A stretch of DNA of 64,000 nt from Nitrospira tepida (GCF_947241125.1 NZ_OX365700.1:2140001-2204000), one strand, 5' to 3'; shown: positions 4,602-38,731, counted from the first letter of the stretch. The notes: generated by a model not told the origin, from the letters alone. Made by a program: numbers and translations.

Positions 4602-4621
4602 GGGTCGTCAGCACCTTAGGC

Positions 4622-15100: not shown

Positions 15101-15124
15101 ATCTTTATTGTGGAGGTACGCCCT

Positions 15125-15364
15125 ATGGCAGGCATGAGCAAGAAGGAAAAACAGGCGTGGGAGATGCTTCTCGGGGACATCCGGCATGCGCGACGAACCT
15201 ATCGGCACTTGATGGAACGTGCGCAGAGCGAACCGGAGAAAGTGCGGTTGTATCTCAGTACGCTCGATGAAGAAGAGATTCTGCGAGATGGCCTGTTGGG
15301 AAAACTGTGGCAGGTCGTCTCAGGTCAGGACGCCAATCGGCATCGGCACCCGCTCTCGACATGA
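15125..15364 (+). CDS. Small hypothetical protein, 79 residues
   Basis: ATG 15125 lies 8 bases after GGAGG. The protein is charged and helical (MAGMSKKEKQAWEMLLGD, then HARRTYRHLMERAQ). No known domain. The last 45 bases overlap the end of a minus-strand gene (convergent overlap at 15320-15364). A 16-bp palindrome immediately upstream may control it. Confidence 0.55.
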   Translation: MAGMSKKEKQAWEMLLGDIRHARRTYRHLMERAQSEPEKVRLYLSTLDEEEILRDGLLGKLWQVVSGQDANRHRHPLST

Positions 15365-15655
15365 GAAACAGGTGTAGATGATCGTCGGTCCCTTCCCGTT
15401 CATCTCAAGTTCCCACAGATCACAATCTTCTCGCGAACCTTTCGGATACAGCGTGTCGAGTCGAGTCTGACATCTCGGACACAGGACCGGCTTCGGCTGG
15501 AAGTTCCAATAGCGCAGCACTCGATCGAACCAGTCGCGCAGGCGTTGCTTGAGGTCATCGCTGCCGGTGTCACGGCTCTGTGACTCCTGCAGCAGGACCT
15601 CTGCTTCATCGTGGAGAGGCCCGCTGAGCGGGATTTCGACTCGGTAGGCTCTCAT
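15320..15655 (-). CDS. Small zinc-ribbon-like hypothetical protein, 111 residues
   Basis: Two Cys pairs, CPRC near residue 60 and CFSC near 97, give the CxxC...CxxC spacing of a zinc ribbon. The N-terminal half is helical and acidic. The start used is the ATG at 15655, but the ribosome site is weak. Its 3' end overlaps the convergent 79-residue gene by 45 bases. Zinc-ribbon proteins recur in this module (see 16143 and 18215). Confidence 0.5.
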   Translation of the reverse strand: MRAYRVEIPLSGPLHDEAEVLLQESQSRDTGSDDLKQRLRDWFDRVLRYWNFQPKPVLCPRCQTRLDTLYPKGSREDCDLWELEMNGKGPTIIYTCFSCRERVPMPIGVLT

Positions 15656-15718
15656 CGATTCACGATGTACTGCAGCGCAGGCGGATTGTCAATCCTTGTC
15701 ACTCATCAGGAGGCCATC

Positions 15719-16102
15719 ATGGAGAGCCATCACAAATGGAACGACTACTTCAGGTCCCATCGCGAATTCATCCTCGCGACGCTGTTCGAACCGGATCGGG
15801 TTCACACGGCAGCGGGGGACGTACTCTGCGAAGTCGATGGGAAGCTAGTGAAGGTCCGCACGCTCGTGGACGAGATTGAACAGCAAACGCGGGGGCAGGC
15901 GACGCTTCCGGAAACCTGGGAGTTCGACTTCGCCCGGAGAGTGGTCGCACAGGCGGCAAGGCTTGGGCGCTTCGAGCGCGAAGCCTTGATGACGTTTGCC
16001 CGGTACAGCCCAAGGGATCTGCCAAGGTTGTCGCAGGAAGCTCATGAAGCGGTCGTGACCGCCTCGCAGGCCCTCTATGCGGAACCGATTTGCCAACGTT
16101 GA
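15719..16102 (+). CDS. Hypothetical protein, 127 residues
   Basis: ATG 15719 follows GGAGG with 5-base spacing and is preferred over the longer frame. No recognised domain; mainly helical (QAARLGRFEREALMTFARY). It is followed after 40 bases by the large zinc-ribbon protein on the same strand, so the two probably share a transcript that ends at the terminator near 17631. Confidence 0.6.
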   Translation: MESHHKWNDYFRSHREFILATLFEPDRVHTAAGDVLCEVDGKLVKVRTLVDEIEQQTRGQATLPETWEFDFARRVVAQAARLGRFEREALMTFARYSPRDLPRLSQEAHEAVVTASQALYAEPICQR

Positions 16103-16142
16103 CCAATTCACCATGACACACACCATCGAAGGAGACACCATC

Positions 16143-21452: not shown

Positions 21453-21890
21453 TTATGCAGCCGGGTGGACAATGATGAAGCGGCCATCCCACAAGCCGGC
21501 CAGGACGGAGGCGACGTCTTTCCACGCGAGGCCGCCGAGTCCACAGCCCAGTCGGGGGCAGTAGATCGTGGTGAGTCGGTTATGATCGGCGAGGTGGACG
21601 GCTTCTCGGGCAGTGCGTTCAATCAATCCGAGATTTGAGGGCCGTATCCATGCTTCCTTGGTCGGCAGTGTCACGATTCGGAACTCAGGCCAGTAGTAGA
21701 CATGGTTTCCAGAGGCGCGGAGCTTCTCTCCGAGGAGAATGGGCAGATTCGGGAATAGTTGTGCGGCGGCCAAGGCCACTCCCGCACCCATGACCGCACG
21801 ACCATCCCGGCGACAGTTTCCGTTCGTAGGCACGCCGATACAAAAGCCCTGATCGTGCACATCCCACAGGTCACCGGTAATCTCACGCAT
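21453..21890 (-). CDS. Macrodomain protein (ADP-ribose-binding)
   Basis: 145 residues. Macrodomain signatures: MREITGDLWD start strand, VPTNGNCRRDGRAVMGAGVA (ADP-ribose distal loop), and CPRLGCGLGGLAWKDV (phosphate loop). Known: this fold binds or hydrolyses ADP-ribose, including the DarG-type antitoxins that remove ADP-ribose from DNA. No DarT-like transferase gene is adjacent. The upstream leader contains hairpin repeat copy 4. Inference: it could protect the element from ADP-ribosylation defences. Confidence 0.85.
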   Translation of the reverse strand: MREITGDLWDVHDQGFCIGVPTNGNCRRDGRAVMGAGVALAAAQLFPNLPILLGEKLRASGNHVYYWPEFRIVTLPTKEAWIRPSNLGLIERTAREAVHLADHNRLTTIYCPRLGCGLGGLAWKDVASVLAGLWDGRFIIVHPAA

Positions 21891-22915: not shown

Positions 22916-25900
22916 ATGCCTCGTATCTTTGACAACATCGAACAATCTCTCCTGCCAGCGCTGCGCGAAACAATCCAAGTTGCTGACCGTGCCGACTTCT
23001 GTGTTGGGTATTTCAACCTTCGGGGATGGAAGCAGCTCGACTCGTATATTGAGAAGTGGTCCGGAGGAGACGGGCACTGCTGCCGCCTATTGGTCGGCAT
23101 GCAGCGGTTGCCGCAAGACGAATTACGGGAAGCTCTGAGCCTGATAAGCCGAGATGGCGAGATAGACAACCAGACGGCAATTCGCCTCAAAAAGAAGCTC
23201 GCCGAAGAGTTCCGCGAGCAATTGAGCGTTGGCATTCCTACCAACGAAGACGAAGCGGGATTACGCAAGCTGGCAGAACAGATTAAATCCAAGAGGGTTA
23301 TAGTCAAACTGTTCCTCCGGCATCCCCTACATGCCAAGTTGTATTTGCTTTTTCGCCCCGATCCTATCAATCCCTCCGTCGGGTACCTAGGAAGCAGCAA
23401 TCTGACGCTTGCGGGCCTTTCCAAGCAGGGCGAGCTGAACGTGGACGTACTGGATCACGACGCCTGCCAGAAGTTGGCCAAGTGGTTCGAAGATCGGTGG
23501 ACGGACCGTTGGTGTGTGGATATTTCGGAAGAACTGGTCCGGATTATCGAAGAGAGCTGGGCTCGGGAAGAACTCGTGCCTCCGTACCATATCTATATCA
23601 AGATGGCGTACCATCTTTCGCAAGAGGCACGGGCGGGGCTTTCCGAATTTCGAATACCACGAGACTTTGGCAAGCGGCTATTCGAGTTTCAAACGGCGGC
23701 GGTCAAGATTGCGGCTCATCACCTGAACAAGCGCAGCGGCGTGTTGATCGGCGATGTGGTGGGTCTCGGGAAAACTCTGATGGCCACTGCCCTGGCAAGG
23801 ATTTTCGAAGATGATCATGGGCTTGAGACACTCATCATCTGTCCCAAGAACTTGGTCCCGATGTGGGAGGATTATCGAGCACAATACCGGTTACTCGCGA
23901 AGGTGTTGTCAATTAGCCAGGTTGTAGGGGAACTGCCGAATCTGCGCCGTTACCGCCTCGTGCTCATCGACGAAAGCCACAACCTTCGCAACCGTGAAGG
24001 CAAGCGCTATCGGGCAATTCAAGAATACATCCAAGCCAATGAGAGCAAGTGCATTCTGCTTTCTGCCACCCCCTACAACAAAACCTATCTTGACCTTTCC
24101 AACCAGTTACGTCTCTTCGTCAAAGAAGACAAAGACCTCGGTGTTCGTCCCGAACGCTTAATTCGCGAGCTCACCGAAACCGAGTTTATTCGACGCCATC
24201 AATGTTCCGTGCGCTCTCTGGCGGCTTTCGAGAAGAGCGAATATGCGGACGACTGGCGAGAACTGATGCGCCTCTACATGGTAAGACGCACCCGCAGTTT
24301 CATTCAGGACAACTATGCCCAGACTGACCCAACCAGCGGTCGGAGATTTCTCACCTTCGAGGATGGGAGCCGGTCTTACTTTCCCATCAGAGTTCCAAGA
24401 ACAGTGACCTTTAAGATTGACGATGCCAACCCCGCAGACCAGTATGCGCGGCTCTACGCCGACGATATCGTCAATACCATCAACGCCCTCAATCTCCCTC
24501 GGTACGGATTAGGGAACTATGTGGCGGCGACGCCGCATGAACCACCTACACAAGCTGAAGCGAGATTGCTGCAAGACCTATCTCGTGCCGGGAAACGCCT
24601 TATGGGGTTCTGTCGGACGAATCTGTTCAAGCGTCTCGAAAGCAGCGGCCAGGCCTTTCTCCAGTCAATCGAACGTCATATCCTCCGCAATCACGTTTAC
24701 CTTCATGCGATTGAACACAAGAAGCCCATCCCAATCGGCACGCAAGATGCCGAGATGCTCGATGCGCGCATATACGACGAAGACGCCGACGCCCCCGGAG
24801 CCAAGACAGGATTATTTGACGACGACGAGAACGATCAAGAGCAAGAGCGACCACTCACAGGGTCGCTCCGAAAGGCCAAGGACTTCATCAGTCGAGGAGC
24901 CGAGATTTATGAGGAGTACGCTGGTCAATACAAGCGGCGATTTAAGTGGCTTCCGTCAGGACTCTTTGTGAAATCGTTAGAGAACGATTTGCGGAGCGAT
25001 ACAGAGGCCCTCCTAAAGGTCTTGCAACTATGCGGTGAATGGGACTCGAACAAAGACGCCAAGCTTCTGGCCCTCGTCAATTTGCTCAAGAAGAAACACC
25101 CGAATGACAAAGTCCTTATCTTTACTCAATTTGCCGATACCGTCCGCTACCTAGAGACCCAGCTCGCGGCTCGTGGAGTCTCATCCTTGGCTGGTGCAAC
25201 CGGAGACTCTCCGAACCCGACAGCCTTGGCGTGGCGGTTCAGCCCGGATAGCAACGATAAGCGTGACAGACTGAAACCGGGCGAGGAGTTGCGAGTCCTG
25301 ATTGCCACGGACGTGCTCAGTGAGGGACAAAACCTGCAAGATGCGGCCATTGTGGTGAATTTCGACCTCCCCTGGGCCATCATTCGCCTCGTCCAACGAG
25401 CAGGCCGTGTGGACCGTATCGGACAGAAGGCTGAGAACATCCTCTGCTACTCTTTCTTGCCCGCCGAAGGCGTCGAGCGCATCATACGACTCCGAGCCAG
25501 AGTGAGGCGCCGTCTTCAAGAAAATGCGGAAGTGGTCGGCACCGACGAGGCCTTCTTCGAGGATGATCGAAACGATAATGCGATCCTCAATCTCTACCAT
25601 GAGAAAGCAGGCATTCTAGATGGAGAGGCCGATACAGAAGTGGATTTGGCCTCGTATGCCTATCAAATCTGGAAGAACGCGATTACCGCCGATCCAAGCC
25701 TACAAAAGACCATCCCCGATCTGCCGCCCGTAATCTATGCCACGCGGGCGCATGACCCGACGAACAAGCAACCAGGCGGGGTGCTGGTGTATCTGAGAAC
25801 AGCCGAAGGCAACGACGCGCTGGCCTGGATCGACAAAAACGGTACCGCCGTCACGGAGTCTCAGTTCGCCATCCTCCAGGCTGCGGCGTGCAGCTCAGAC

Positions 25901-26302
25901 ACACCAGCCCTACCGCGCCAATCGAACCATCACGAACTGGTCCAGAAGGGTGTCGAGTTGATAGTCACAGAAGAGAAAACAGTTGGGGGACAATTAGGAC
26001 GGCCTTCAGGGGCACGTTTTCGCACGTATGAACGACTCAAGCGCCATGCGGAGCATGTCAAAGGCACGTTGTTTGAGTCCCTGGAACTTCTGAAAGCCAT
26101 CGATGAAATCTACCGCTATCCACTCCGCCAAGCCGCCGTGGATACGCTCAATCGCCAACTCCGAAGCGGGGTGTCGGACGAGGCACTGGCAGAACTGGTC
26201 ATCGCGCTCCGTGAAGAAGATCGGCTCTGTCTAATTCATGAGGAAGAACAGACCCAGGAACCTAGGATCATCTGTTCCATGGGACTATCAGCGCCCGAAT
26301 AA
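22916..26302 (+). CDS. PLD-SNF2 fusion helicase of a probable defence system
   Basis: 1128 residues. The N-terminal 200 residues are a phospholipase D-like domain with one HKD-type motif (HAKLYLLF followed by GYLGSSNLTL). A SNF2-type SF2 helicase follows: Walker A GDVVGLGKT near 280, motif II LIDESHNL near 349, motif III LLSATPYNK near 382, motif V VLSEGQNLQDA near 805 and motif VI QRAGRVDRIGQ near 827. Known: such proteins pair with adenine methyltransferases in DISARM-like and helicase-methylase-ATPase defence loci. The single HKD motif implies dimerisation if it is a nuclease. The methyltransferase starts 10 bases downstream. Confidence 0.9.
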   Translation: MPRIFDNIEQSLLPALRETIQVADRADFCVGYFNLRGWKQLDSYIEKWSGGDGHCCRLLVGMQRLPQDELREALSLISRDGEIDNQTAIRLKKKLAEEFREQLSVGIPTNEDEAGLRKLAEQIKSKRVIVKLFLRHPLHAKLYLLFRPDPINPSVGYLGSSNLTLAGLSKQGELNVDVLDHDACQKLAKWFEDRWTDRWCVDISEELVRIIEESWAREELVPPYHIYIKMAYHLSQEARAGLSEFRIPRDFGKRLFEFQTAAVKIAAHHLNKRSGVLIGDVVGLGKTLMATALARIFEDDHGLETLIICPKNLVPMWEDYRAQYRLLAKVLSISQVVGELPNLRRYRLVLIDESHNLRNREGKRYRAIQEYIQANESKCILLSATPYNKTYLDLSNQLRLFVKEDKDLGVRPERLIRELTETEFIRRHQCSVRSLAAFEKSEYADDWRELMRLYMVRRTRSFIQDNYAQTDPTSGRRFLTFEDGSRSYFPIRVPRTVTFKIDDANPADQYARLYADDIVNTINALNLPRYGLGNYVAATPHEPPTQAEARLLQDLSRAGKRLMGFCRTNLFKRLESSGQAFLQSIERHILRNHVYLHAIEHKKPIPIGTQDAEMLDARIYDEDADAPGAKTGLFDDDENDQEQERPLTGSLRKAKDFISRGAEIYEEYAGQYKRRFKWLPSGLFVKSLENDLRSDTEALLKVLQLCGEWDSNKDAKLLALVNLLKKKHPNDKVLIFTQFADTVRYLETQLAARGVSSLAGATGDSPNPTALAWRFSPDSNDKRDRLKPGEELRVLIATDVLSEGQNLQDAAIVVNFDLPWAIIRLVQRAGRVDRIGQKAENILCYSFLPAEGVERIIRLRARVRRRLQENAEVVGTDEAFFEDDRNDNAILNLYHEKAGILDGEADTEVDLASYAYQIWKNAITADPSLQKTIPDLPPVIYATRAHDPTNKQPGGVLVYLRTAEGNDALAWIDKNGTAVTESQFAILQAAACSSDTPALPRQSNHHELVQKGVELIVTEEKTVGGQLGRPSGARFRTYERLKRHAEHVKGTLFESLELLKAIDEIYRYPLRQAAVDTLNRQLRSGVSDEALAELVIALREEDRLCLIHEEEQTQEPRIICSMGLSAPE

Positions 26303-26312
26303 CCAACCAACA

Positions 26313-29300
26313 ATGCCGCTCGACCCTACTCGAACTCGCCAACACCTCGCCGCTTGTGATTTTCGACGTCTTTTCATAGAAGAACTCGGTTGGGACACGC
26401 ATTCTGCAACCATCGAGATACCGATCGACGGCCAGCCGTTTACCCTTAGCGCCGTCGCTCAGAAGCGCGGCATGGTTGCGTTCCACTGTCGTGCAACTGG
26501 CCAGAAGGGAATTCCTGACTACTCGATACGCCGCAAAATCGACCGCCAGCTCACCAAGTCCGCTCAAGAACATCTCATCATTTACACCGATCCATCCAAC
26601 TCCGCTCAAGTATGGCAGTGGGTGAAGCGCGAGGTGGGCAAACCGACGGCCTGTCGGGAACATACCTACCATCGCAATCAACCGGGAGACGCCCTCATCC
26701 AAAAGCTCCAGGGCATCGTCTTTTCCCTGGAGGAGGAGGAGCAACTCAGTCTGGTGGAAGTAACCACGCGGGCGCGAGCGGCCTTCGACGTGGAGCGCGT
26801 CACAAAGCGGTTCTACGATACGTTCCAGAAAGAACACACGGCATTCCTAAAGTTTCTCAAAGGCATTCCAGACGAGGACCTGCAGCGATGGTACGCCTCC
26901 GTCATGCTCAACCGGTTGATGTTCGTCTACTTCATTCAGAAAAAGGGCTTTCTCGACGACAACCGAGACTACCTGCGGATCAAATTGAACGAGTCGCAGG
27001 CCCGAGGGAGGGACCGATTCTACAGAGACTTTCTCTGCGCGCTGTTCTTCGAAGGCTTCGCCAAAAAGGATACCGATCGCGGAGCAACCGTGAACCGATT
27101 GCTGGGCAAGGTGCCTTACCTCAACGGAGGTCTGTTTCTACGCCATCAGATTGAAGAGCAGCACGGCAAAGACATTCAGGTGGCCGATGCCGCGTTTGCC
27201 AGACTCTTCGGCTTCTTCGAACAGTACCACTGGCACCTCGATGAGCGCCCGCTCCGCCGGGATGACGAAATCAATCCCGACGTGCTTGGTTATATCTTTG
27301 AGAAGTACATCAACCAGAAGCAGATGGGCGCCTATTATACGAAGGAAGACATCACCGGCTACATCAGCCAAAACACGGTAATTCCGTTCCTCTTCGATGC
27401 CGCGCGGCAGAAGTGCAAGATCGCCTTCGAAGGCAATCAATCCGTTTGGCGCCCGCTCCAGCTCGACCCAGACCGCTACATCTATGAGCCGGTGAAGAAG
27501 GGAGTCGTTCTCGAGCTCCCTCCTGAAATTGCTTCCGGCCTGAAAGATATCTCGAATCGGACGGAATGGAACAAAGCCGCGCCCTCAGACTATTCCCTGC
27601 CAACGGAAATTTGGCGTGAAGTCGTCGCCCGCCGTGCGCGATACCTAGAGGTGCGCAAAAAACTCGCGGACGGCGAAATTCGAGATGTCAACCAGTTCAT
27701 TACCTACAACCTCGATATCAGGCAGTTTGCGCAGGATGTCATCGAAAATTCCGAAGGTCCGGAACTGCTGCGGGCCTTTTACCATGCGATTGAAAAGGTC
27801 ACGGTGCTCGATCCGACTTGCGGCTCTGGAGCCTTCCTCTTTGCTGCACTCAATATCCTTGAACCGCTCTACGAAGCTTGCCTGGACCGGATGGAAGTGT
27901 TCCTAGACGAGCTCACGCGCTCGGGCACCAAGCACCTCCCGGAGAAGTTCAACGACTTTCGGAAAATTCTTGATCGGGTCGCGAGTCATCCCAACCGTCG
28001 TTACTTCATCCTGAAATCCATCATCCTCAACAATCTCTATGGCGTGGACATCATGGAAGAGGCCGTCGAGATCTGCAAACTTCGTCTCTTCCTCAAACTT
28101 GTGGCGCAAGTCGAGAAGGTGGAGCAGATCGAGCCGCTACCGGACATCGACTTTAATATCCGTGCGGGTAATACGTTGGTTGGATACGCCAGGCTTGAAG
28201 ATTTGAAGAAGTCCATGGAAGGGGACTGGGTACGCCTTCAATCCCTCCCGACCATAGAAGAAAACGCCGAGATTGCCGACAGGGCGTTTCAGAAGTTCCA
28301 CGAGATGCAGACTGAGCACGGCATGGAGGCGAAAGACTTCGCCGAGGCCAAGGAGGAGCTACGTAGGCGACTCCAGACGCTTGAGGACGAACTCAATCGC
28401 TATCTTGCCAACGAGTATGGTGTCGAGGCTTCAAAGCGCGCTTCCTATGCGAAGTGGCTTGCCTCCCACAAGCCTTTCCACTGGTTCATAGAATTTTACC
28501 GCATTATGAAAAGCGGGGGGTTCGATGTGATTATCGGCAATCCGCCCTACGTGGAGATGCACAAAGTTACGACCTACAGCCTTATTGGCTACGTAACTAA
28601 AGAGTGTGGCAACCTTTACCCGCCATGTGTGGAGCGCAGTTCTGCTCTGTTAAGGAATACAGGAAGCTTCAGCATGATCGTTCCCTTGAGCGGCTTCTCG
28701 ACTGATCGCATGGAGCCCTACCAAGATTACGTTTGGAATCGATACGGGCAACAACTACACATTTCCTACTATAGTGGAGATGCTCACCCTTCTGTCATGT
28801 TCAATGGAGTAAAGTACCGCCTGTGCATCGTTATTGGCGGACCGCAGTACACAGGTTCGGCAAAGGTCCAGACCACTGAGTACTTGCGATGGTATGCGGA
28901 CGAGAGGCCTTACCTGTTCGCAAAGATAGCTTACTCAGAATGTGGATTCCCAAATGGTTTCTTAAGATTTGCAAAACTCGGAAGTAGGTTGGCTGCCAAG
29001 GTGCTTGGCAAGATCGTCAGCAAACAACTTACTATGAACATTTATTTCTCCGATTCGGGGCCAGGTCATGTCACGTATCATAGAAGTCCTGTGTTCTGGA
29101 TTAGATCCATGGACTTCGAACCGTACTTTAAGTCTGCCGTTAAGGAGAGATCAACCGATCATCTTAAGGACTTGTATCTCAAGAGGGAAGAGCACGCAAA
29201 GCGACTTGGCGCCATTTTGAATAGCACTCTCTTTTACTTTTGGTTTACGAGCCAAGGAAATTGTAGAAACATCGCTGGCCCAGATATAGAGAACTTCCCC

Positions 29301-29585
29301 ATCGGAGATCTGAACTCACCAGCGCTCAAACATCTCGAACCTCTCTTCAACAAACTGATGAAAGATCTCCAGCGGCATTCACGAAGACGCATTTATAACT
29401 ACGAGGCATCGGGACAAGTTGAGTATGATGAGTTTTATCCCGACAGATCAAAGCCCATCATCGACGAGATAGACCGCGTGCTCGCGAAGCACTACGGCTT
29501 CACGGATGAAGAACTGGACTTCATCATCAACTACGACGGCAAGTACCGTATGGGTCAGGATGCTGGGTCTGATGATGGAGAATAA
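26313..29585 (+). CDS. N6-adenine DNA methyltransferase, Type IIG/Eco57I-like
   Basis: 1090 residues from ATG 26313, 10 bases after the helicase stop; the longer frame overlaps that gene and is not needed. SAM-binding motif LDPTCGSGAFLFAAL lies near residue 498 and the catalytic NPPY near 741 (VIIGNPPYVEMHKV), the gamma-class arrangement. A YYTKEDITGY segment precedes it, as in Type I and IIG enzymes. The C-terminal 300 residues resemble a target-recognition domain. No clear PD-(D/E)xK nuclease triad is seen in the N-terminus. It probably marks host DNA for the helicase partner. Confidence 0.9.
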   Translation: MPLDPTRTRQHLAACDFRRLFIEELGWDTHSATIEIPIDGQPFTLSAVAQKRGMVAFHCRATGQKGIPDYSIRRKIDRQLTKSAQEHLIIYTDPSNSAQVWQWVKREVGKPTACREHTYHRNQPGDALIQKLQGIVFSLEEEEQLSLVEVTTRARAAFDVERVTKRFYDTFQKEHTAFLKFLKGIPDEDLQRWYASVMLNRLMFVYFIQKKGFLDDNRDYLRIKLNESQARGRDRFYRDFLCALFFEGFAKKDTDRGATVNRLLGKVPYLNGGLFLRHQIEEQHGKDIQVADAAFARLFGFFEQYHWHLDERPLRRDDEINPDVLGYIFEKYINQKQMGAYYTKEDITGYISQNTVIPFLFDAARQKCKIAFEGNQSVWRPLQLDPDRYIYEPVKKGVVLELPPEIASGLKDISNRTEWNKAAPSDYSLPTEIWREVVARRARYLEVRKKLADGEIRDVNQFITYNLDIRQFAQDVIENSEGPELLRAFYHAIEKVTVLDPTCGSGAFLFAALNILEPLYEACLDRMEVFLDELTRSGTKHLPEKFNDFRKILDRVASHPNRRYFILKSIILNNLYGVDIMEEAVEICKLRLFLKLVAQVEKVEQIEPLPDIDFNIRAGNTLVGYARLEDLKKSMEGDWVRLQSLPTIEENAEIADRAFQKFHEMQTEHGMEAKDFAEAKEELRRRLQTLEDELNRYLANEYGVEASKRASYAKWLASHKPFHWFIEFYRIMKSGGFDVIIGNPPYVEMHKVTTYSLIGYVTKECGNLYPPCVERSSALLRNTGSFSMIVPLSGFSTDRMEPYQDYVWNRYGQQLHISYYSGDAHPSVMFNGVKYRLCIVIGGPQYTGSAKVQTTEYLRWYADERPYLFAKIAYSECGFPNGFLRFAKLGSRLAAKVLGKIVSKQLTMNIYFSDSGPGHVTYHRSPVFWIRSMDFEPYFKSAVKERSTDHLKDLYLKREEHAKRLGAILNSTLFYFWFTSQGNCRNIAGPDIENFPIGDLNSPALKHLEPLFNKLMKDLQRHSRRRIYNYEASGQVEYDEFYPDRSKPIIDEIDRVLAKHYGFTDEELDFIINYDGKYRMGQDAGSDDGE

Positions 29586-31830
29586 CCCCGAAAAGAGCCA
29601 GCGCACGAAACATGAATTCTCAGCCGATCGGCCTATCAGCTCTATTGAGGAAGACCTCCTGGGCCGTGCTCCGTTTGCGAAATCCCTAGCCTCCGCCATC
29701 AAAGGCTGGCAGGGCAATGAGAGCCTGGTCGTTGCCATGTATGGACCTTGGGGCTCGGGGAAATCTTCGGTAAAAAACATGGTCCTGCAAACGCTCCGTT
29801 TGGCCGAGACGAACTGTCCCCTGATCATTGAGTTCAATCCATGGCAATGGTCAGGCCAAGATCAACTGGCAGAGGCGTTCTTTCAAGAAATCGGTCTGTT
29901 ATTGGGCCGATCGGACGGAAGCGAAGACGGGAAACGACGTGCGGCCAAGTGGCGAACCTATGGAACCTACCTCACCCTCGGCGCCTCTCTCGCCAAATCA
30001 CTTAAGACCATCTTGCCAATACTTGGACTGCCCGGTTCGGGAATCGCAGACATGCTTTCCAAAGGGATGGAGCAATCTGCGACCGTGGCGCAAGAAGGCT
30101 CAAAAGGAGTCGAGGACCAAGCGGTCGTGCAACAGCAGACATTGGCTGAGATAAAGAAAGAGCTTTCTGACTCCCTGAAAGAACTCGAAAGGCCAATCCT
30201 CGTGGTGTTGGATGATATCGATCGCCTCACACCTGAAGAAATACGACTCCTCTTCCAACTCGTCAAAGCTAATGCTGACTTTCCAAACGTGGTCTATCTC
30301 CTTCTGTTCCAACGCGACATCGTGGAGCGTAGTTTGGATTCATCGCCAGCCGTCAGTGGACAAGAATTCCTTGAGAAAATAGTACAGGTGGGATTCGATA
30401 TCCCACGTATTGAGCGAACACGCCTGGAGAAAGTCCTATTCGCGGGCCTCGACGAACTACTAACCGATGGGGATGTGGGCAAGCGGTTCGACCAGACGCG
30501 CTGGGGCAACCTATTCCTTGGAGGCCTTCGCCCCTACTTCCAAACGCTACGGGATGTGTACCGCTATCTGGCCTCCCTCTCTTTTCACGTTTCGCTGTTT
30601 CGGAGCACGGGCAGCTTTGAAGTGAACCCAGTGGACCTTATCGCGCTGGAAGTGCTCCGCGTCTTTGAGCCAGTCGTTTACCGGAGGCTTCCCGAGGCTA
30701 AGTTAGAGCTGACGAACCTTCGCGACCGCGCGCATGATTCGCACGACGAAAACGAGCGAACGAGAAAACTCATTGAGTCCATAGTCGAAGCGGCCTCACA
30801 ACCCGGCCAGGTCCGCGAGATAGTCAAAGAACTCTTCCCGCCGGTTGAATGGGTATTCAACGGATCCATGTATGGCCATGACTTTAAGGAGGAGTGGTTT
30901 AGGGAGCTGCGTCTCTGCCACCCCGATGTGTTCGACCGGTATTTCCATCTCGCAATTCCTGAGGGAGACATTTCCCAAGCGGAGCTAGATCGGGTACTGT
31001 CCCTCGTTGGTAATCGTGAAGGCCTAGTCGTAGAATTCCGTGCGCTTAACAAGCGTAGCCTGTTAGGCGTCGCACTGGACCGTCTTGAAGCCTACAAGCA
31101 GAAAATCGACCTGCAACACGCCGTATCGTTTATCACCGCGCTGTTCGATATCGGCGACGAACTGCCAGAAGATCGAGGTGGCTTCTTTTCAATTTCCCCA
31201 GACACGCATGCGTCCCGCATCATCTACTGGTACTTGAAACAGGAGATGGACATAGGCAGACGCGGGGCTATCCTCAAGGAGGCCATGAAAGCCACGACGG
31301 GTCTGTACCTTCCGATAAGGATCGCTTCCCTCGAAGGTAACGAAGAGAAGCGAAAGAAGGACCCTGATGCTTTTAATGTGACTGACGCTGATTTGGACGC
31401 ACTGCACCATATCTGTGTGGAAAAGATTGAACAAGCCGCAGGCTCCGGAATCCTGACAAGCCATCGCAACATGCTTAGCATCCTTTATTGCTGGGATAAA
31501 TGGGCCTCACACGAAAAACCTCGTCAATGGGTGGAAAAGTTAATCGACTCAAAGGAAGGCGTCCTCTCTTTCCTCACCGCATGTCTTCACCGGTCTACGT
31601 CCCATGGTATGGGGGACTATGTGTCGCAGGAGCACTGGCGGATCAATCTGACGAACATCGAAGATTTCGTTCCCGTGGGAACTTTGGAAAGGAAAGTGGC
31701 GGAAATCTCACCCGACGGCCTCAGCGACAAGGAAAAGAGTGCGGTGAAGGCATTCCAAAAGGCAATCAAGCGGCGACGGGATGGAAAACCTGATGACGGT
31801 CACTGGGCTGATGACGAGGACGAGGGATGA
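29572..31830 (+). CDS. KAP-family P-loop NTPase
   Basis: About 752 residues; ATG 29572 overlaps the methyltransferase end by 14 bases (29560 is an alternative). Walker A MYGPWGSGKSSVKN near residue 60 and Walker B PILVVLDDIDRLTPEEI near 210 define the KAP family of STAND-type NTPases. The hydrophobic insertion typical of membrane-bound KAPs is modest here (about 145-160, LPILGLPGSGIADML). Known: KAP ATPases recur in defence islands. Overlap with the methyltransferase makes it the third component of one operon. Confidence 0.87.
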   Translation: MMENNPEKSQRTKHEFSADRPISSIEEDLLGRAPFAKSLASAIKGWQGNESLVVAMYGPWGSGKSSVKNMVLQTLRLAETNCPLIIEFNPWQWSGQDQLAEAFFQEIGLLLGRSDGSEDGKRRAAKWRTYGTYLTLGASLAKSLKTILPILGLPGSGIADMLSKGMEQSATVAQEGSKGVEDQAVVQQQTLAEIKKELSDSLKELERPILVVLDDIDRLTPEEIRLLFQLVKANADFPNVVYLLLFQRDIVERSLDSSPAVSGQEFLEKIVQVGFDIPRIERTRLEKVLFAGLDELLTDGDVGKRFDQTRWGNLFLGGLRPYFQTLRDVYRYLASLSFHVSLFRSTGSFEVNPVDLIALEVLRVFEPVVYRRLPEAKLELTNLRDRAHDSHDENERTRKLIESIVEAASQPGQVREIVKELFPPVEWVFNGSMYGHDFKEEWFRELRLCHPDVFDRYFHLAIPEGDISQAELDRVLSLVGNREGLVVEFRALNKRSLLGVALDRLEAYKQKIDLQHAVSFITALFDIGDELPEDRGGFFSISPDTHASRIIYWYLKQEMDIGRRGAILKEAMKATTGLYLPIRIASLEGNEEKRKKDPDAFNVTDADLDALHHICVEKIEQAAGSGILTSHRNMLSILYCWDKWASHEKPRQWVEKLIDSKEGVLSFLTACLHRSTSHGMGDYVSQEHWRINLTNIEDFVPVGTLERKVAEISPDGLSDKEKSAVKAFQKAIKRRRDGKPDDGHWADDEDEG

Positions 31831-32018
31831 GGTGCCAGCGTTCGCTTGGACCACTCACGGCCATCCTCAGTGCCCCGTCGCCCTGAACAAATACCTGGTG
31901 GACAAGAGCCCCAAATGTGCCGGCCTCCCGGCGCCAGGCGTCCCGGAAATTGGCCATCGCATATCCACTCTCTGGATCGAACCTAACTCGGTACAACGAG
32001 GGGGTGTGTGCCCTCAGC

Positions 32019-32945
32019 ATGGATAAGCCACCGTCAGAATGGACGGAGCAGGATCTACTCTCGCTGATTCAGAGTGGCGCAGAGGAACAGACCGACCTCG
32101 AATATAAGCGGGGCGACGCACTGACCAGCAACGTGAAGGCGAAGAATGAGATTAGTAAGGACGTTTCGGCGTTGGCTAACGGTGCAGGCGGCGTAATTGT
32201 CTACGGCATGGTGGAAGAGCAACATACTCCACGCCAATTGGACGGGGTCGATCCGGCGCAGGTCACAAAGGAGTGGCTTGAGCAGGTCATCAACGGCCGG
32301 GTACGTCCTCGGTTAGCTGGAGTCTACATAAATCTAGTTGCGCTCACTGCCTCCGCTCCGGGAAAGGTGGCCTATGTCGTAAGCGTTCCACAGGCACCGA
32401 CGGCCCATCAAGCGGCGGACAAGAGATACTACAAGCGATTCAACTTTGAATCTGTACCGATGGAAGACTATGAGATCCGCGACATCATGAATCGCATGAA
32501 ACACCCTCTTATCATCCCTTCCTTCTCGCGAAGATTCATAGATCGCAAGGCAACTGTGTGCGAATATGCACTGAACATCTCACTTGTTAATAAGGGAGCA
32601 GTGTCTACCCATGATGTGAAGGCAGTTTTCACCGTTCCAAGAACCGTATCCAAAGTCGTGAAGGGCTTTGATAAGCAGCGCATCATCGAAATACCTTCTC
32701 GTCTGTTCGGGAATCAATGGTTCGAGAATCCGTTGACCGCGGTCGGGCGTGTCATTTTTCCAGAAGATGATTGGGAGCTTACCAACGGAAAGGATCGAGA
32801 CTTCGTCCTAATCGTGGACACAAGCCGCATTGATATGAATGAGACCAGGGAGCCCATTCTACTCTGGAAAACCTATGCCGATGACATGCCACCGCAGTCC
32901 GGGCAAGTGATGCTGGGTGAAATACCATCCGTAGGCGGCCAATGA
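32019..32945 (+). CDS. AlbA_2/Schlafen AAA_4-type putative DNA-binding protein
   Basis: 308 residues from ATG 32019. Residues about 12-140 match the AlbA_2 (divergent AAA_4/Schlafen-like) domain: ETDLEYKR, then DVSALANGAGGVIVYGM and the later YYKRFNFESVPMEDYE. Known: this domain occurs in regulators and defence proteins, with ATP- or nucleic-acid-binding roles. The C-terminal 150 residues are strand-rich and unassigned. It lies 188 bases after the KAP gene on the same strand and may belong to the same system. Confidence 0.78.
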   Translation: MDKPPSEWTEQDLLSLIQSGAEEQTDLEYKRGDALTSNVKAKNEISKDVSALANGAGGVIVYGMVEEQHTPRQLDGVDPAQVTKEWLEQVINGRVRPRLAGVYINLVALTASAPGKVAYVVSVPQAPTAHQAADKRYYKRFNFESVPMEDYEIRDIMNRMKHPLIIPSFSRRFIDRKATVCEYALNISLVNKGAVSTHDVKAVFTVPRTVSKVVKGFDKQRIIEIPSRLFGNQWFENPLTAVGRVIFPEDDWELTNGKDRDFVLIVDTSRIDMNETREPILLWKTYADDMPPQSGQVMLGEIPSVGGQ

Positions 32946-32967
32946 AGATTCTTTAAGGTTCGTATCC

Positions 32968-33612
32968 ATGAAAAGAATTGGTGATGCAAAGAGCTGCAAG
33001 GCTCATCCGAAAAGGCCCCGCGGATCTTGCCTACCCCGGACCGGCGACCAGATGGTCCTTCACTCCTTCAAGGAGGTTGTGCAGGATTACATCGCTAGGT
33101 ACAGAGACAGGGCTAACAATGAGCTTGCCTCCTTCCAGATGTTGAACTCTCTCGATGAAGCCGTAGAAAGGGCTGCCAGGGCGGAGGTAGACGGTGGGAG
33201 AAAGCATGACCACCAGTGGCGGATCCCGGAGGCGGTATTAGCCAGGGCGGGCAAAGAGCTGCTGGCGAAACGCGCTCAGATCAGGAAATGCACCGGCTTT
33301 GACAGCTTAATCGAACTGGTGGAAACAACGGCTGGGTCGATCAGGGGATTTGGAGAGCTGGCGATATACGATACCGCGGTCCGCATTGGAGCTCGGCTCG
33401 GGATGGAACCCGAATTTGTCTACCTGCATCGTGGGACGCGGAAGGGCGCCAAAGCTCTCGGTCTTGCCTCAGGAGGCAAGTACCTGAAGGTGGGCGAACT
33501 GCCAGCAGAATTCACCAAGCTAAGGCCTCACGAAATCGAGGATTGCCTTTGTATCTATGCCAAGGAGCTTGCTCGTCTGAAAAGAGCTTCTGTGAATGTA
33601 AGAGCGAACTGA
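32968..33612 (+). CDS. Hypothetical protein, 214 residues
   Basis: Not recognised. ATG 32968 has TAAGG upstream; ATG 33052 is a second option that drops a basic N-terminus. The protein is alpha-helical with conserved-looking motifs (FGELAIYDTAVRIGARLGM and YLHRGTRKGAKALGL). No catalytic pattern, signal or membrane helix is visible. It lies 22 bases after the AlbA_2 gene, so co-transcription is likely. Confidence 0.62.
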   Translation: MKRIGDAKSCKAHPKRPRGSCLPRTGDQMVLHSFKEVVQDYIARYRDRANNELASFQMLNSLDEAVERAARAEVDGGRKHDHQWRIPEAVLARAGKELLAKRAQIRKCTGFDSLIELVETTAGSIRGFGELAIYDTAVRIGARLGMEPEFVYLHRGTRKGAKALGLASGGKYLKVGELPAEFTKLRPHEIEDCLCIYAKELARLKRASVNVRAN

Positions 33613-33632
33613 AAGGTTCCCATCGGCGTATA

Positions 33633-34085
33633 CTGCGCTACTATTTCGCATACGGCTCGAATCTTGATACAGGACGCTTGGAGCACCGCGTCGGGAGGAA
33701 GAACGTCGAGTGTAGGCTTGCTCGGCTCGATGGATACCGGCTTTCTTTTGACAAGCCTGCCGATGATGGCTCTGGCTACGCGATGGTGGTTCCCGATGAA
33801 GGTCACGCTGTCCATGGAGTTTTGTACGCATTGCAAGATCATGAATTAGACAAGCTCGACAAACATGAGGGCGTTCACAAGAAACAGTACGTACGACGAA
33901 CGATCACGGTCAAAACCCATGACGTGGAGCCGATCTCGGCTGAGTGCTATTTCGCGGTCAGCCCATCTTCTAGACTGCGTCCCGGCCGAGTCTACCTCGA
34001 TCTGATAATCAAAGGCGCAAAGGAGCACAACCTGCCGCACGGATACATCGAATGGTTACAAACTGTCGCTGTGTTCGACGAGTGA
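33633..34085 (+). CDS. Gamma-glutamylcyclotransferase-like (AIG2/GGCT fold) protein
   Basis: About 150 residues. YYFAYGSNLD at the N-terminus is the GGCT substrate loop, and LDKLDKHEGVHKKQYVR carries the conserved acidic catalytic residue of the family. The start is a problem: no ATG, GTG or TTG lies between the previous gene's stop and this motif; CTG 33633 is the nearest possibility, while the open frame extends upstream to a TTG at 33543 inside the previous gene. Known: the fold releases 5-oxoproline from gamma-glutamyl amines, but many members have other roles. Confidence 0.72.
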   Translation: MRYYFAYGSNLDTGRLEHRVGRKNVECRLARLDGYRLSFDKPADDGSGYAMVVPDEGHAVHGVLYALQDHELDKLDKHEGVHKKQYVRRTITVKTHDVEPISAECYFAVSPSSRLRPGRVYLDLIIKGAKEHNLPHGYIEWLQTVAVFDE

Positions 34086-34149
34086 GGCGACTGGTAGAAG
34101 ATCGTTCAGTGCCATCTCGTTGACGCTACCCCGCCGTTCGGCGCCTGTA

Positions 34150-34155
34150 TATAAT
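34150..34155 (+). promoter_or_regulatory. Perfect -10 hexamer abutting the giant gene's ATG
   Basis: TATAAT ends 5 bases before ATG 34161, so transcription would start at about the A of the start codon, giving a leaderless mRNA. No good -35 is visible at 16-18 bases. Confidence 0.5.
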
Positions 34156-34160
34156 CGCCC

Positions 34161-37100
34161 ATGCCCAATGGACCTGACGTTGTCCCTCAGCCACCGCTGG
34201 ATGAAACACCATCGCCATCCCCTTTAACGACTCCGTGGTCCTCATCGCGGCGGAGGCTGCTCCATTGGTTGAAGAAAAAGGCACCTTCCCTGGCAGAGCT
34301 CTATGAGACCGCTGTGATTCTTCTTGAGCAACAACCACTCCCTGGCCGGAGCCGAATCATTGCGCATTGCGTTCGAGAGATCGCGAATACCTTACCCGGA
34401 ATTCTCGCAGGTGTGGAGCGCACACGTTTGGAATACGACAAGCGATTGGATGAGATTGCGCTGGCCTGGGACCGAATGATCCGGCCTCTGATCCGTCCAC
34501 CTCGGACCGTTGGCTCTACATCCATTCCGGATCCCCAAGATGCTTTGACCGAGGATTTCTTGGGTCAGATAGAAGAGCTGATCAAGGAGCACAAGGCAAC
34601 ACGTGCCAAACCCGATACGATTGCCGAGAAACTGTTTCAGGCAGACCGCCCAGAAAATCGCCATCTTGGTGATGCATTGCGTCCGGTTTTGAGACGTTGG
34701 ATCAAACTAAAGGAATGGTTTGTCGGTCACGCACATGATAACGGCAAGACAGATTCGGAATATGACTGGGACGACATCAAGCGACGATTTATTCTTTTTG
34801 AAAGGACAGTGCTCACGCTTGGACAAGGCTTCTTCGTAACGATCGCTGACATTGACGACTTGATTCGAAATTCGACTCCAGCCGACGTCCATCTCGTCGT
34901 AACCCAGCTTGGACATATTGAACATTACAGGTACTTTTTCGAGAATCTCAAGGATCCGGCATGGATCCCTGCCCTACGAACCGAAGGAATCTTTAGGACC
35001 CCTCCACCTATTGAAGCTAGCGGCATCCCACGTTGGGCGGCTTCAGAATACCTCGTGCGTGTTGCCGACAGAGCCGATCCCACCGCGGTCCTGAATGGCT
35101 TGACCGACATTGTAGATGCTCTTGCTCAACGGACCTTGGCGAATCCATTTGTTATCCGCGATTTGGTAGATGTACTTCTTAAACTGCCGGCGCAACATTC
35201 CGTTCGCTTTATCCCAAGATTGAGCAAATGGGTTCATCACGATAGCGGGATCTTGTTCTGGCGACGACTTGGCAAACTGACAACCCATCTGGCAGACGGC
35301 GGACTGTCACAGGAAGCCCTGACACTGCTTACAGCGCTGCTCGCTATTGAACATGTACAGGCTGATGGTGACTCGGACATCTTGTATAGGCCGGTTAAGC
35401 CGCGGATAAGCATGTATGAATATCGTCAGGTCGTGGAGGACCATCTTCAACCCGTACTTGACAGGACCGGCCGCGAGTGCTTTGACATCTTATGCAACAT
35501 CCTTCAGAAGGCGGCAAAACTCTCTCGCCGCTCATCCTCGTCGGATGAATGGGACGACAACTCCATCGTGTGGCAGCCGGATCTAGCTCTTCAGGACGAA
35601 GACGATCGCGATGACGTTAGGAGCGTATTGGCCGTCACGACTCGGGACGCTGCCCAATCTTTGCTGAGCGATGGACGTATCGAGCTCGGTCCCTTGGTCG
35701 AAGCGCTTGAAACACGCTGCTGGCTGATCTTCAGACGGCTTGCTCTATACTTTCTCGCATCTGCCACCTTAGCGCCAAGAGACATGGTGGCGTCGAGGCT
35801 CACACATGAACCATCGTTCAGAGGCAGAAACTTGCGAAAGGAATACGATGCGCTACTTCAAGTCGGTTTTGCGCGCCTGACTCCTGATGAACAGCGGACA
35901 ATTGTCGCATGGGTTGACGCAGGACCTCAGAACGTCGAGAGATTGATTAGGAACTATGAAGCGAGCACTGGGCGGCGCCCCAGCAGTGAAGAGATCGAGA
36001 GGCATCGCCGGAGCTGGCAATGGAATCGGCTAGGGCCATGCCATACCGCCCTGCCACCTCCCTGGCAAGAGCGGTATGCCGCGCTTGTACAGGAATTTGG
36101 CGAGTTCGAGCCAGCGCCACCGCCAATGAGAGAAGCGAGGGTGGTCTCGGCGGGAGAGCGTGCTCCAAGATCTGAAGACGAACTGCGGAGACTTACGCCG
36201 TCTGAATTGCGAAATTATCTGCTCAGTTGGACACCAGATCGGAACTCTTTTCCGTATCCCACACGGTCAGGTCTGGCAGAAGTGTTGACGTCCGTCGTTG
36301 CGACTAATCCAGTTCCTTATGCCGACGCATCAGAGAAATGGAGAGACATAGATCCGACATATGTTCACGGCATCGTTCGTGGGTTCGTGAAGGCGCTTCA
36401 GGCAGATCATCAAATTCCATGGGCGCGGGTCTTCTCTCTGTGCTCGTGGATCCTTGATCAACCTCGCACAATTCCAGGACGGAGTGTTGATCGCTGGGAA
36501 GCCGATCTGGATTGGGGTGGAACCCGTTGGTGGATCGTTGAGCTCCTTCGTGTCGGCTTTCAGCATGAAACCTTGGGGATTCCGATTGAACTTCGTGAAG
36601 CGGCCTGGTGCCTCCTGGAAACATTGACGATGGATCCGGATCCAGAGCCGGAGGACGACGAAGAAGATTCCGAACGGCCGAGTCAGTCGATGCATCGCGC
36701 AATCAATTCAGTTCGTGGTCGGGCCATCGAGGGTCTCATCTTCTACCCGGGATGGATAAAACGGCAGAATGAAGATGCCGGGCCCCCAACACTTCCCGCA
36801 GAAGCACGTGCTGTACTCGACAGGCATTTAGATCCGGCTAGGGATCCTTCACTGGCGATTCGGTCCCTGTACGGCCGTTGGTTTCCATGGATCCTTGTGT
36901 TTGATCGAGACTGGGCAACTGCCGCTGTCCCGCGGATATTTCCGGCCACCAACCAACGGTACTGGCTGGTCGCATGGGATGGATTGATTTGTTTCAACGA
37001 CGGCTATGAAGAGGTATTTGAACCACTCGAGCCGGTATACGCGCAGGCCGTTGCGCAGCTTGGGAGTCCGACGGCATCGGCGGATGACACTCGCCATTTG

Positions 37101-37721
37101 CGCGATGAAAGATTAGCCGGCCATCTGATGACGTTCTATTGGAGAGGCCACTACACGCTAGAGGAGGAGGACTCACTTCTTCGCCTGTTTTTCACACGGG
37201 CACCCGACAAGATACGGGCGGAGGCGATTGAGTTCATTGGCCGCAGCTTAGATGGCACGGCAGATCCTATCGAACCCGCTGTGCTAGACCGACTGCAGCG
37301 TCTCTGGGTTTGGCGATTCGAACAGGCGAGGCGGGATCCGGCAAGCCACCAGGCCGAGCTTCGGGCGTTCGGCTGGTGCTTCGGTTCTAGTAAATTTGGG
37401 GCAGGGTGGGCTGTGGAAAACCTTCTGGGTGTCCTGCGATTAACACATAGCATTGATCCGGATTTCCAGGTGCTGGAGCGTCTCCCCGATTATGCAGCCG
37501 CGTTTCCAATTGAGGTTCTAGAATGTGTCAGGCTCTTGGTCGAGGGGCAAACGTCGCATATTGAGCTTTCTAGTTGGGGTGGAGATCTTCGAAGAATGTT
37601 CTCGCAGACAAGAGAACACCCGTTACCGGAAGTTAGACAGGCCTCAGATGCCGTAATTGAACTTCTTGGGAGATTTGGTCACCTCGGCTATGCGGAGTTA
37701 CTTTCCGGCAAGTCGGCTTAG
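34161..37721 (+). CDS. Giant hypothetical protein, 1186 residues
   Basis: I cannot assign a family. The N-terminus is Pro/Ser rich (residues 1-35) and is followed by a motif-like segment (LAELYETAVILLEQQPLPG then IAHCVREIANTLP). The rest is almost entirely alpha-helical, with many Trp, Arg and Asp residues, and looks like a long helical solenoid. No Walker, nuclease or protease motif is obvious by eye. It has its own promoter and no Shine-Dalgarno. Position at the end of a defence island suggests a large scaffold or effector. The remaining 50 residues are helical up to the stop. Confidence 0.75.
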   Translation: MPNGPDVVPQPPLDETPSPSPLTTPWSSSRRRLLHWLKKKAPSLAELYETAVILLEQQPLPGRSRIIAHCVREIANTLPGILAGVERTRLEYDKRLDEIALAWDRMIRPLIRPPRTVGSTSIPDPQDALTEDFLGQIEELIKEHKATRAKPDTIAEKLFQADRPENRHLGDALRPVLRRWIKLKEWFVGHAHDNGKTDSEYDWDDIKRRFILFERTVLTLGQGFFVTIADIDDLIRNSTPADVHLVVTQLGHIEHYRYFFENLKDPAWIPALRTEGIFRTPPPIEASGIPRWAASEYLVRVADRADPTAVLNGLTDIVDALAQRTLANPFVIRDLVDVLLKLPAQHSVRFIPRLSKWVHHDSGILFWRRLGKLTTHLADGGLSQEALTLLTALLAIEHVQADGDSDILYRPVKPRISMYEYRQVVEDHLQPVLDRTGRECFDILCNILQKAAKLSRRSSSSDEWDDNSIVWQPDLALQDEDDRDDVRSVLAVTTRDAAQSLLSDGRIELGPLVEALETRCWLIFRRLALYFLASATLAPRDMVASRLTHEPSFRGRNLRKEYDALLQVGFARLTPDEQRTIVAWVDAGPQNVERLIRNYEASTGRRPSSEEIERHRRSWQWNRLGPCHTALPPPWQERYAALVQEFGEFEPAPPPMREARVVSAGERAPRSEDELRRLTPSELRNYLLSWTPDRNSFPYPTRSGLAEVLTSVVATNPVPYADASEKWRDIDPTYVHGIVRGFVKALQADHQIPWARVFSLCSWILDQPRTIPGRSVDRWEADLDWGGTRWWIVELLRVGFQHETLGIPIELREAAWCLLETLTMDPDPEPEDDEEDSERPSQSMHRAINSVRGRAIEGLIFYPGWIKRQNEDAGPPTLPAEARAVLDRHLDPARDPSLAIRSLYGRWFPWILVFDRDWATAAVPRIFPATNQRYWLVAWDGLICFNDGYEEVFEPLEPVYAQAVAQLGSPTASADDTRHLRDERLAGHLMTFYWRGHYTLEEEDSLLRLFFTRAPDKIRAEAIEFIGRSLDGTADPIEPAVLDRLQRLWVWRFEQARRDPASHQAELRAFGWCFGSSKFGAGWAVENLLGVLRLTHSIDPDFQVLERLPDYAAAFPIEVLECVRLLVEGQTSHIELSSWGGDLRRMFSQTREHPLPEVRQASDAVIELLGRFGHLGYAELLSGKSA

Positions 37722-37789
37722 GATCTGTGTCAGTTCGACCTCTAACGGCGTATAATGCACATATCCACCCTGCCAGCCCGGAGGTGCCT

Positions 37790-38146
37790 ATGCGTACCTT
37801 CCTACTCCTCGTCGCCTTGATGCTCATCGTGATCACCCCGGCGTGGGCTGAGTTCGGCTTCGATGAGAAGTATGAACGCGACTACAACATCTTCAATCCG
37901 ATCAATCAACTGCGTCCTGACAATCCCCTGAACCCGATCAATTCGGTGGATCCTAAGAACCCCTTCAACCCCATCAACAGTGTCGATCCGGGGAATCCCG
38001 CCAATCCGATCAATCGTTACAATCCCAACAATCCCTTTAATCCGATCAACGAGGTCAACCCTAACAATCCGCTGAACCCGATCAATCAGTACAACCCAAA
38101 CACGCCTTTCAGACCGCTGAACACTTTTCCCGACCGTCAACGCTAG
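37790..38146 (+). CDS. Secreted repeat protein with six 12-residue NPIN repeats
   Basis: 118 residues from ATG 37790, with GGAGGTGCCT as ribosome site. A classic signal peptide (MRTFLLLVALMLIVITPAWA) is followed by a short linker and six tandem 12-residue units of the form NPINxxxPxNPx. The units are regular at DNA level (36 bp). The C-terminus is RPLNTFPDRQR. The regular Asn-Pro spacing suggests an extended or solenoid periplasmic or surface structure. No known family recognised. A TATAAT-like hexamer lies at 37751-37756. Confidence 0.72.
   Translation: MRTFLLLVALMLIVITPAWAEFGFDEKYERDYNIFNPINQLRPDNPLNPINSVDPKNPFNPINSVDPGNPANPINRYNPNNPFNPINEVNPNNPLNPINQYNPNTPFRPLNTFPDRQR
37895..38110 (+). 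repeat. Six tandem 36-bp coding repeats
   Basis: Each unit encodes NPINxxxPxNPx. Nucleotide identity is strongest in the AAYCCSATCAA core. The array is a recent or selected tandem duplication inside the secreted protein. Confidence 0.8.
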
Positions 38147-38200: not shown

Positions 38201-38731
38201 CTACAGTTCTTGGTGGTCTGCAAAGCTGTAGTACCGGTCCTCGCCCAGCACAACGTGGTCAAGCACGGTGATGCCCAGCAGCTCGCCCCCATCTTTAAGT
38301 CGCCGAGTCAGAGCACGGTCTTCTGGGCTCGGACTCGAATCGCCGCTCGGATGGTTGTGGGCCAGGATGACGGCACTCGCGTTCATGAGGATGAGTGGCT
38401 TGAAGACTTCGCGGGGATGGACGATGCTGAGGGTAACCGATCCGATGCTGACGGTGTTGATGCCGATGACGGCATGCTTCGCGTCAAGGCCTATGACCAG
38501 GAAATGCTCGCGATCGAGTCCATCGAAGACCGGTACAAGCAGCCGGTACGCGTTGTGGGAATCCATGATCTTGACGGGTGAGGGGTGCGCCAGGCTCTCC
38601 TTCACCAGCATCACCCGATAGTGGGGAATCGCATAGACATGTTGGCCTGTCTGGGGCTTGGCAGCGCGAGGTCTTCTCGTCGAGCGAGGAGACAGGTCAC
38701 GATGTGGACTCTCTGGAGTAGAGGGTGTCAT
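38201..38731 (-). CDS. radC: Short RadC-family JAB/MPN protein
   Basis: 176 residues. The JAB/MPN metal-binding signature is present: PLILMNASAVILAHNHPSGD followed by SPSPEDRALT. The N-terminal helix-hairpin-helix domain of full-length RadC is missing; instead there is a basic, disordered leader. Known: short RadC proteins are typical of plasmids, phages and islands. It probably marks the right part of the accessory block. The biochemical role of RadC is unsettled. Confidence 0.88.
   Translation of the reverse strand: MTPSTPESPHRDLSPRSTRRPRAAKPQTGQHVYAIPHYRVMLVKESLAHPSPVKIMDSHNAYRLLVPVFDGLDREHFLVIGLDAKHAVIGINTVSIGSVTLSIVHPREVFKPLILMNASAVILAHNHPSGDSSPSPEDRALTRRLKDGGELLGITVLDHVVLGEDRYYSFADHQEL

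Follow-up and report, generated by a model that had tools for sequence, protein, structure and literature searches.

Restriction enzymes in which a PLD nuclease is driven by an ATP motor have been established for CglI/NgoAVII and SauUSI, and the R-proteins of CglI/NgoAVII are PLD-family endonucleases. Type III and ISP enzymes, whose targets are methylated on one strand only, depend on two opposed sites and ATP-dependent communication (PMC5737866). The present analysis concerns a gene pair of Nitrospira tepida, located in a stretch of 64,000 nucleotides (GCF_947241125.1, NZ_OX365700.1:2140001-2204000; hereafter the window), that encodes a PLD-SNF2 helicase (gene 1, nt 22916-26302) and an Eco57I-class N6-adenine DNA methyltransferase (gene 2, nt 26313-29585) and heads a block of seven co-directional + strand genes (nt 22916-37721). 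The region from 22916 to 29585 is quite probably a two-subunit ATP-dependent restriction-modification (RM) system, the usual third gene of which is DprA-like and the slots of which hold exchangeable second-line defence. The two genes are apparently a widespread, unnamed bacterial immune pair, no description of which was found in the open-access part of the literature.

An earlier note made from the sequence of the window had proposed a probable defence operon of six genes (nt 22916-34085). All six open reading frames (ORFs) were present on the + strand at the positions it gave; the 10-base spacing and 14-base overlap of the first three genes were correct, Pfam agreed with its gene identities (PLD fused to SNF2 helicase, adenine methyltransferase, KAP NTPase, AlbA_2, and a GGCT-like protein matching GGACT/AIG2_2), and the locus is indeed defence-like. 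The end of the block, however, had been set too early, a seventh gene (nt 34161-37721) having been missed.

The helicase-methyltransferase pair

Gene 1 encoded a protein of 1128 amino acids, in which an N-terminal PLD nuclease domain (HxK...GSSN) was fused to an SNF2/SF2 translocase, with matches to Pfam PLDc_2, RE_NgoFVII, SNF2-rel_dom and Helicase_C; the best PADLOC model was the C3a139 'HKD+Snf2' candidate (180 bits). The HxK motif (LHAKLY) was present in 62 of 64 aligned helicases and GSSN in all 64, while the Walker and helicase motifs were near-invariant among the relatives. Gene 2 encoded 1090 amino acids from the conserved start, ATG 26313, which leaves 10 bases between the two genes; its longest ORF began at nt 26238, and the relatives begin at residue 26 of that frame. 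It matched Pfam Eco57I and, over its full length (residues 26-1108), PADLOC PDLC03628 (REase_MTase_IIG, 1086 bits). Among 79 methyltransferases, motif I was conserved in 69 and the NPPY motif in 75, and the catalytic motifs of both window genes were intact. As a separate observation, another genome (L210, G123:C174, nt 8840-9733) contained a free-standing PLD protein that shared 93% identity over 267 residues with the N-terminal part of the window helicase. Its gene stood directly at the head of a full Zorya type I operon (ZorA, B, C, D), the PLD module having there become attached to a different defence system.

An alignment of eight methyltransferases, used to search 84,980 species genomes, yielded 530 relatives. 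The best 80 of these, which as the closest are biased toward kin of the window copy, together with three plasmid loci formed a sample of 83 loci with ORF-based gene calls. In 78 of the 83 loci, from many phyla, a helicase homologue was located upstream of the methyltransferase gene on the same strand, the gap being 150 bases or less in 51 of the 78; three of the five loci without a helicase were truncated by the contig end. The helicase and the methyltransferase thus belong together, as the earlier note had held. Since only five loci were on viral contigs, the pair is not mainly viral. Among 269 genomes of the window's taxonomic class, the methyltransferase was distributed sporadically (14 genomes), and 12 of the 13 that carried it besides the window's own also held a helicase match. 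Matches to the helicase occurred in 16 genomes of the class, 12 of which, the window's own aside, also had the methyltransferase; the helicase-only cases G016, G123 and G188 were short N-terminal fragments, and the pair is therefore nearly obligate.

Pairwise distances of the helicase and of the methyltransferase core were correlated (r = 0.70 over 62 loci, reached in none of 2000 permutations), whereas r was 0.06 between the recognition region and the helicase, and the recognition region was about twice as diverged (0.71 versus 0.37). This region, residues 826-1075 of the methyltransferase, was hypervariable, with an entropy of 2.3 to 3.2 bits as against 0.15 to 1.5 across the greater part of the catalytic core, as is seen where an interchangeable target-recognition domain sits on machinery that is itself conserved. 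The helicases of G056 and G074 shared 91% to 94% identity with that of the window, their methyltransferases only 40% to 48%; the modification gene can therefore be exchanged while the motor stays the same. A co-diverging core with a freely varying recognition region is as expected of an ATP-dependent RM pair, and a methyltransferase of variable recognition linked to a motor-nuclease corresponds to the broad definition of such systems. A protein, P0007, was enriched in pair-bearing genomes (4 versus 0.7 expected, p = 0.003, uncorrected for several tests), in which it sat on other contigs or far from the pair.

The PADLOC assignment of gene 2 raises the alternative of a self-contained type IIG enzyme, in which the methylase chain would also hold the nuclease and the helicase would be a separate neighbour. 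The N-terminal domain of its AlphaFold2 model had the strand order alpha-beta-beta-beta-alpha-beta, like that of restriction endonucleases, and the model matched BrxX/PglX, CamA and MmeI. However, alignment of 79 members revealed no conserved D...(D/E)xK in this domain; at a putative ExK, around K76, the acid position was occupied by Ala, Ser or Cys in all 79, for which reason the PLD domain encoded by gene 1 is most likely the cutting part. Moreover, the IIG models also matched the DISARM DrmMI of the same genome, so that the label is not diagnostic, and a separate neighbour would hardly adjoin and co-diverge with nearly every methyltransferase. The type IIG alternative is thus unlikely.

The annotation of the Synechocystis plasmid pSYSX includes two DNA methyltransferases, one of which (L027) is a relative 47% identical to the window methyltransferase. 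Exactly two pSYSX methyltransferases are reported to be active, M.Ssp6803IV and M.Ssp6803V, the latter being slr6095 (PMC6604393, PMC7296061); by elimination, the relative is therefore M.Ssp6803IV. The target of this enzyme is GAm6AGGC, with 99.6% of sites methylated (PMC7296061), and since the reverse strand, GCCTTC, has no adenine, only one strand is methylated. By analogy, the window methyltransferase may share this one-strand logic, and an SNF2 partner would fit the communication by ATP hydrolysis between sites methylated in this way.

In the two-subunit RM system favoured here, the methyltransferase would read an asymmetric target via its C-terminal region and methylate one adenine, thereby protecting host DNA. 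On foreign DNA without this modification, it would recruit the PLD-SNF2 protein into a complex, the SNF2 motor would travel along the DNA, and the PLD domains, either dimeric or on meeting complexes, would cut both strands, by which means phages could be restricted.

DprA-like gene, cargo slots and trailing genes

Downstream of the methyltransferase gene, 29 of the 40 loci whose sequence continued for 9 kb or more on that side carried a DprA-like gene (PF02481) of about 210 codons. It was on the same strand in every case and lay, over all loci, at -142 to +8225 bases from the methyltransferase. ORFs in the interval between the two were strongly biased in strand (77 + and 6 -) compared with those beyond DprA (50 and 28; Fisher p = 1e-5), and hence behave as cargo inside the operon. 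The cargo of this slot included AlbA_2, OLD/GajA-like (Gabija-like) AAA_15, GmrSD, YhcG and PIN proteins. Ten AlbA_2 genes were found here, in seven loci and 112 kb, whereas the 315 kb examined on the upstream side of the helicase and the 232 kb beyond DprA had none; several of the loci bearing them are from Poribacteria and hence not independent. In a minority of loci a second slot, between the helicase and the methyltransferase, held VapBC, zeta, HepT/MNT, PemK, ParE and similar genes, different toxin-antitoxin or nuclease genes lying exactly between the core genes in L027, L028, L015, L030, L032, L036, L050, L076 and L091. Two proteins of about 190 residues, 57% identical to each other, were encoded from the end of the methyltransferase gene in L098 (nt 13255-13821) and L109 (nt 8231-8824); the former had no Pfam or PADLOC match.

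In the window, the slot between helicase and methyltransferase was empty, and a KAP and an AlbA_2 gene stood right behind the methyltransferase. Gene 3 (nt 29572-31830, start ATG 29572) overlapped gene 2, which ends at 29585, by 14 bases and encoded a PifA-like KAP-family P-loop NTPase (Pfam KAP_NTPase; PADLOC PifA PDLC02361, 322 bits, residues 35-758). This overlap, and the fact that Hma and BREX-related systems combine a helicase, a methyltransferase and an ATPase (PMC12839542), would suit a single BREX/Hma-like system in which KAP is an obligate third subunit. Nevertheless, the KAP gene occurred in none of the 83 loci nor in the methyltransferase loci of the window's class, and its product matched PifA over the full length. 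A 91% identical KAP gene was present in G090, which has no such pair, and the overlap of KAP-bearing with pair-bearing genomes was at chance level (1 seen versus 0.8 expected). For want of linkage, KAP was rejected as an obligate subunit, and the one-system reading with KAP is very unlikely.

Gene 4 (nt 32019-32945; longest ORF from GTG 31917) encoded a Schlafen AlbA_2 protein (Pfam SLFN_AlbA_2), likewise regarded as cargo. Gene 5 (nt 32968-33612) encoded a protein of 214 amino acids that forms a small family of its own, without a Pfam or PADLOC match, and was overlapped by gene 6 (nt 33543-34085), which encoded a GGACT/AIG2-like protein (Pfam GGACT, AIG2_2). In the class, 17, 6 and 5 genomes besides that of the window had the KAP, AlbA_2 and 214-residue genes, respectively, the overlap with pair genomes again being at chance level for the latter two. 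Neither the 214-residue gene nor the GGACT gene was found in any of the 83 loci, and the closest relatives of these two and of the KAP gene were in genomes without the pair; the GGACT family is otherwise common in the class. The claim that all six genes form one system therefore fails, since KAP, the 214-residue gene and GGACT are absent from the sampled methyltransferase loci. Of the linkage that the earlier note had proposed for the downstream genes, the part concerning AlbA_2 stands at the level of the family, which recurs behind the pair elsewhere, while KAP, the 214-residue gene and GGACT proved unlinked; the PADLOC profiles did not assign all genes to one standard system. The trailing genes are thus for the most part interchangeable additional defence cargo rather than constant members of a single system, and KAP and AlbA_2 probably act as independent or back-up abortive-infection genes.

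Relatives of the 214-residue protein were found in five genomes of the class and on three plasmids, none adjoining the pair. Its AlphaFold2 model was mostly helical (pLDDT 83.5) and gave no Foldseek match at E <= 0.001; a helix-hairpin-helix glycosylase was considered and set aside, the weak lean toward it (TM 0.26-0.30) not being evidence. In G078 (L161), the 214-residue and GGACT genes adjoined each other beside the same RadC and 139-residue genes in the same order, and because they travel together with these, both are best read as island neighbours. Other relatives of the 214-residue protein lay near RM-type or methyltransferase-like genes in L171 (Geminocystis pGM3709_08, nt 4953-5558) and L162 (nt 8730-9407).

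Gene 7 (nt 34161-37721), beginning 75 bases past gene 6, encoded a protein of 1186 amino acids with a PADLOC match to Dsr1 (79.6 bits) over residues 227-1050, covering profile positions 293-1094 only. With no Pfam match and no SIR2 match, it lacks the N-terminal SIR2 that defines Dsr1 and appears, from sequence, to resemble the C-terminal part of that protein. A split relative was located directly behind the same methyltransferase type in L095 (nt 13255-16873), and in G131 and G038 the first 238 residues or so had a gene of their own. Gene 7 was followed by a recurrent island gene for a protein of 139 amino acids (nt 37727-38146, + strand), present too in L117 and L161, and by a RadC-like JAB protein (nt 38201-38731, - strand; Pfam RadC, 140 bits) at the right edge of the block. 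The G+C content of the block was about 0.51-0.56, versus about 0.60 across much of the remaining window, and two recombinase-sized ORFs, one with a sub-threshold integrase match, were present at nt 4583-8204. With its lower G+C, these ORFs and RadC, the block looks like a genomic island. A scan for promoters and terminators gave no more sites than in shuffled sequences. Upstream of the block, on the opposite strand, were a Macro-domain protein (nt 21453-21890) just beside it and an AAA_11/AAA_12 helicase of 887 amino acids (nt 11792-14455).

Weighing and significance of the two-subunit reading

The least probable alternative, that the methyltransferase is mainly an epigenetic regulator and the helicase acts in DNA repair or RNA polymerase recycling without any immunity, can draw on the altered expression that follows a methylome change in Synechocystis, seen for another methyltransferase (PMC7296061), and on RapA among the PDB matches of the helicase, but it accords poorly with a near-invariant PLD nuclease motif, a freely varying recognition region, toxin-antitoxin and defence genes as slot cargo and a sporadic distribution in the class.

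Several points weigh against the two-subunit RM reading itself. Joint transfer of the two genes would also be expected to produce co-divergence. The endonuclease-like strand order of the methyltransferase N-terminal domain, in which the conserved acids E111 and E132 remain, leaves a small chance that this domain is an atypical nuclease. The pSYSX relative was equated with M.Ssp6803IV by elimination, and the gene table used for this was incomplete; moreover, no experiment on restriction by the pair was found in the open-access literature, many journals and REBASE lying outside this scope. Finally, no DprA-like gene was observed within 34 kb downstream in the window, whose copy, without the usual DprA-like gene of its relatives, could be incomplete.

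Taken more broadly, the relatives may represent an undescribed, widespread three-gene immune operon of a PLD-SNF2 protein, a methyltransferase with swappable recognition and a DprA-like protein, with two fixed slots for toxin-antitoxin or abortive-infection genes, so that failed or inhibited restriction would be backed by cell suicide; in the window, DprA would have been lost or replaced, with KAP and AlbA_2 as cargo. This broader proposal is tentative, possible rather than probable. The pair is common and RM-like (530 related stretches in the genome scan alone); current profiles separate it, labelling the methyltransferase 'type IIG' and leaving the helicase unassigned, whereas reading the pair as one system predicts its working. 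The recurrent DprA-like gene is a concrete candidate for a third component. New abortive-infection genes might be sought in the fixed cargo slots, which would also put to the test whether a link between restriction systems and back-up toxins is routine.

Comparison with known systems

The kinship to Hma or DISARM suggested in the earlier note was not borne out, since the block contained no DUF499, DrmA or DrmB and the true loci were on other contigs of the same genome, where they served as positive controls. A complete Hma locus (L208, G000:C16:288000-304000) scored 638, 439 and 407 bits for HmaA, HmaB and HmaC and held the only DUF499 match of the genome. Gene 1 scored 73 bits to HmaA, versus 638 for the true HmaA; gene 2 had no significant match or similarity to the genome's HmaB, and with HmaC (DUF499) lacking in the block, Hma was ruled out. 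A complete DISARM locus (DrmD-DrmMI-DrmA-DrmB; L209, G000:C17:608000-627900) contained the only MZB match. The block had no DrmB (DUF1998/MZB), matched DrmA and DrmD only through the helicase core, and encoded among genes 1 to 7 no YprA/DrmA-like protein (as defined in PMC12458937) beyond such cross-matches; DISARM was thus ruled out, as was ARMADA, the defining ATPase/helicase of which is lacking here.

Closer likenesses were partial. The predicted fold of the methyltransferase resembles BREX PglX/BrxX, BrxX being the top structural match, and BR type 2 includes a Swi2/Snf2 helicase with an N-terminal HKD nuclease (PMC12839542); unlike in BREX and Hma, the block lacked a DUF499 ATPase, and none of the scanned genes matched PglZ or DUF3780. 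Gene 3 is like PADLOC PifA over its full length but sits right after an RM methyltransferase. Type ISP (LlaGI, LlaBIII) and type III enzymes offer a similar asymmetric target methylated on one strand and motor-dependent cleavage; ISP enzymes, however, are single polypeptides with their own nuclease and type III enzymes consist of Mod and Res, whereas the window encodes a PLD nuclease with an SNF2-type motor as a separate subunit. CglI/NgoAVII likewise combine a PLD-family endonuclease, an SF2 motor and a methyltransferase with an asymmetric target, but there nuclease (R) and motor (N) are separate proteins and the enzyme has its own recognition, whereas in the window a single chain unites PLD and SNF2 and the methyltransferase is the probable site of recognition. 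SauUSI, a type IV enzyme, carries an N-terminal PLD nuclease and an SF2 ATPase in one chain and translocates on and shreds DNA; it brings a recognition domain of its own and depends on methylated DNA, whereas in the family of the window a partner methyltransferase is nearly always encoded.

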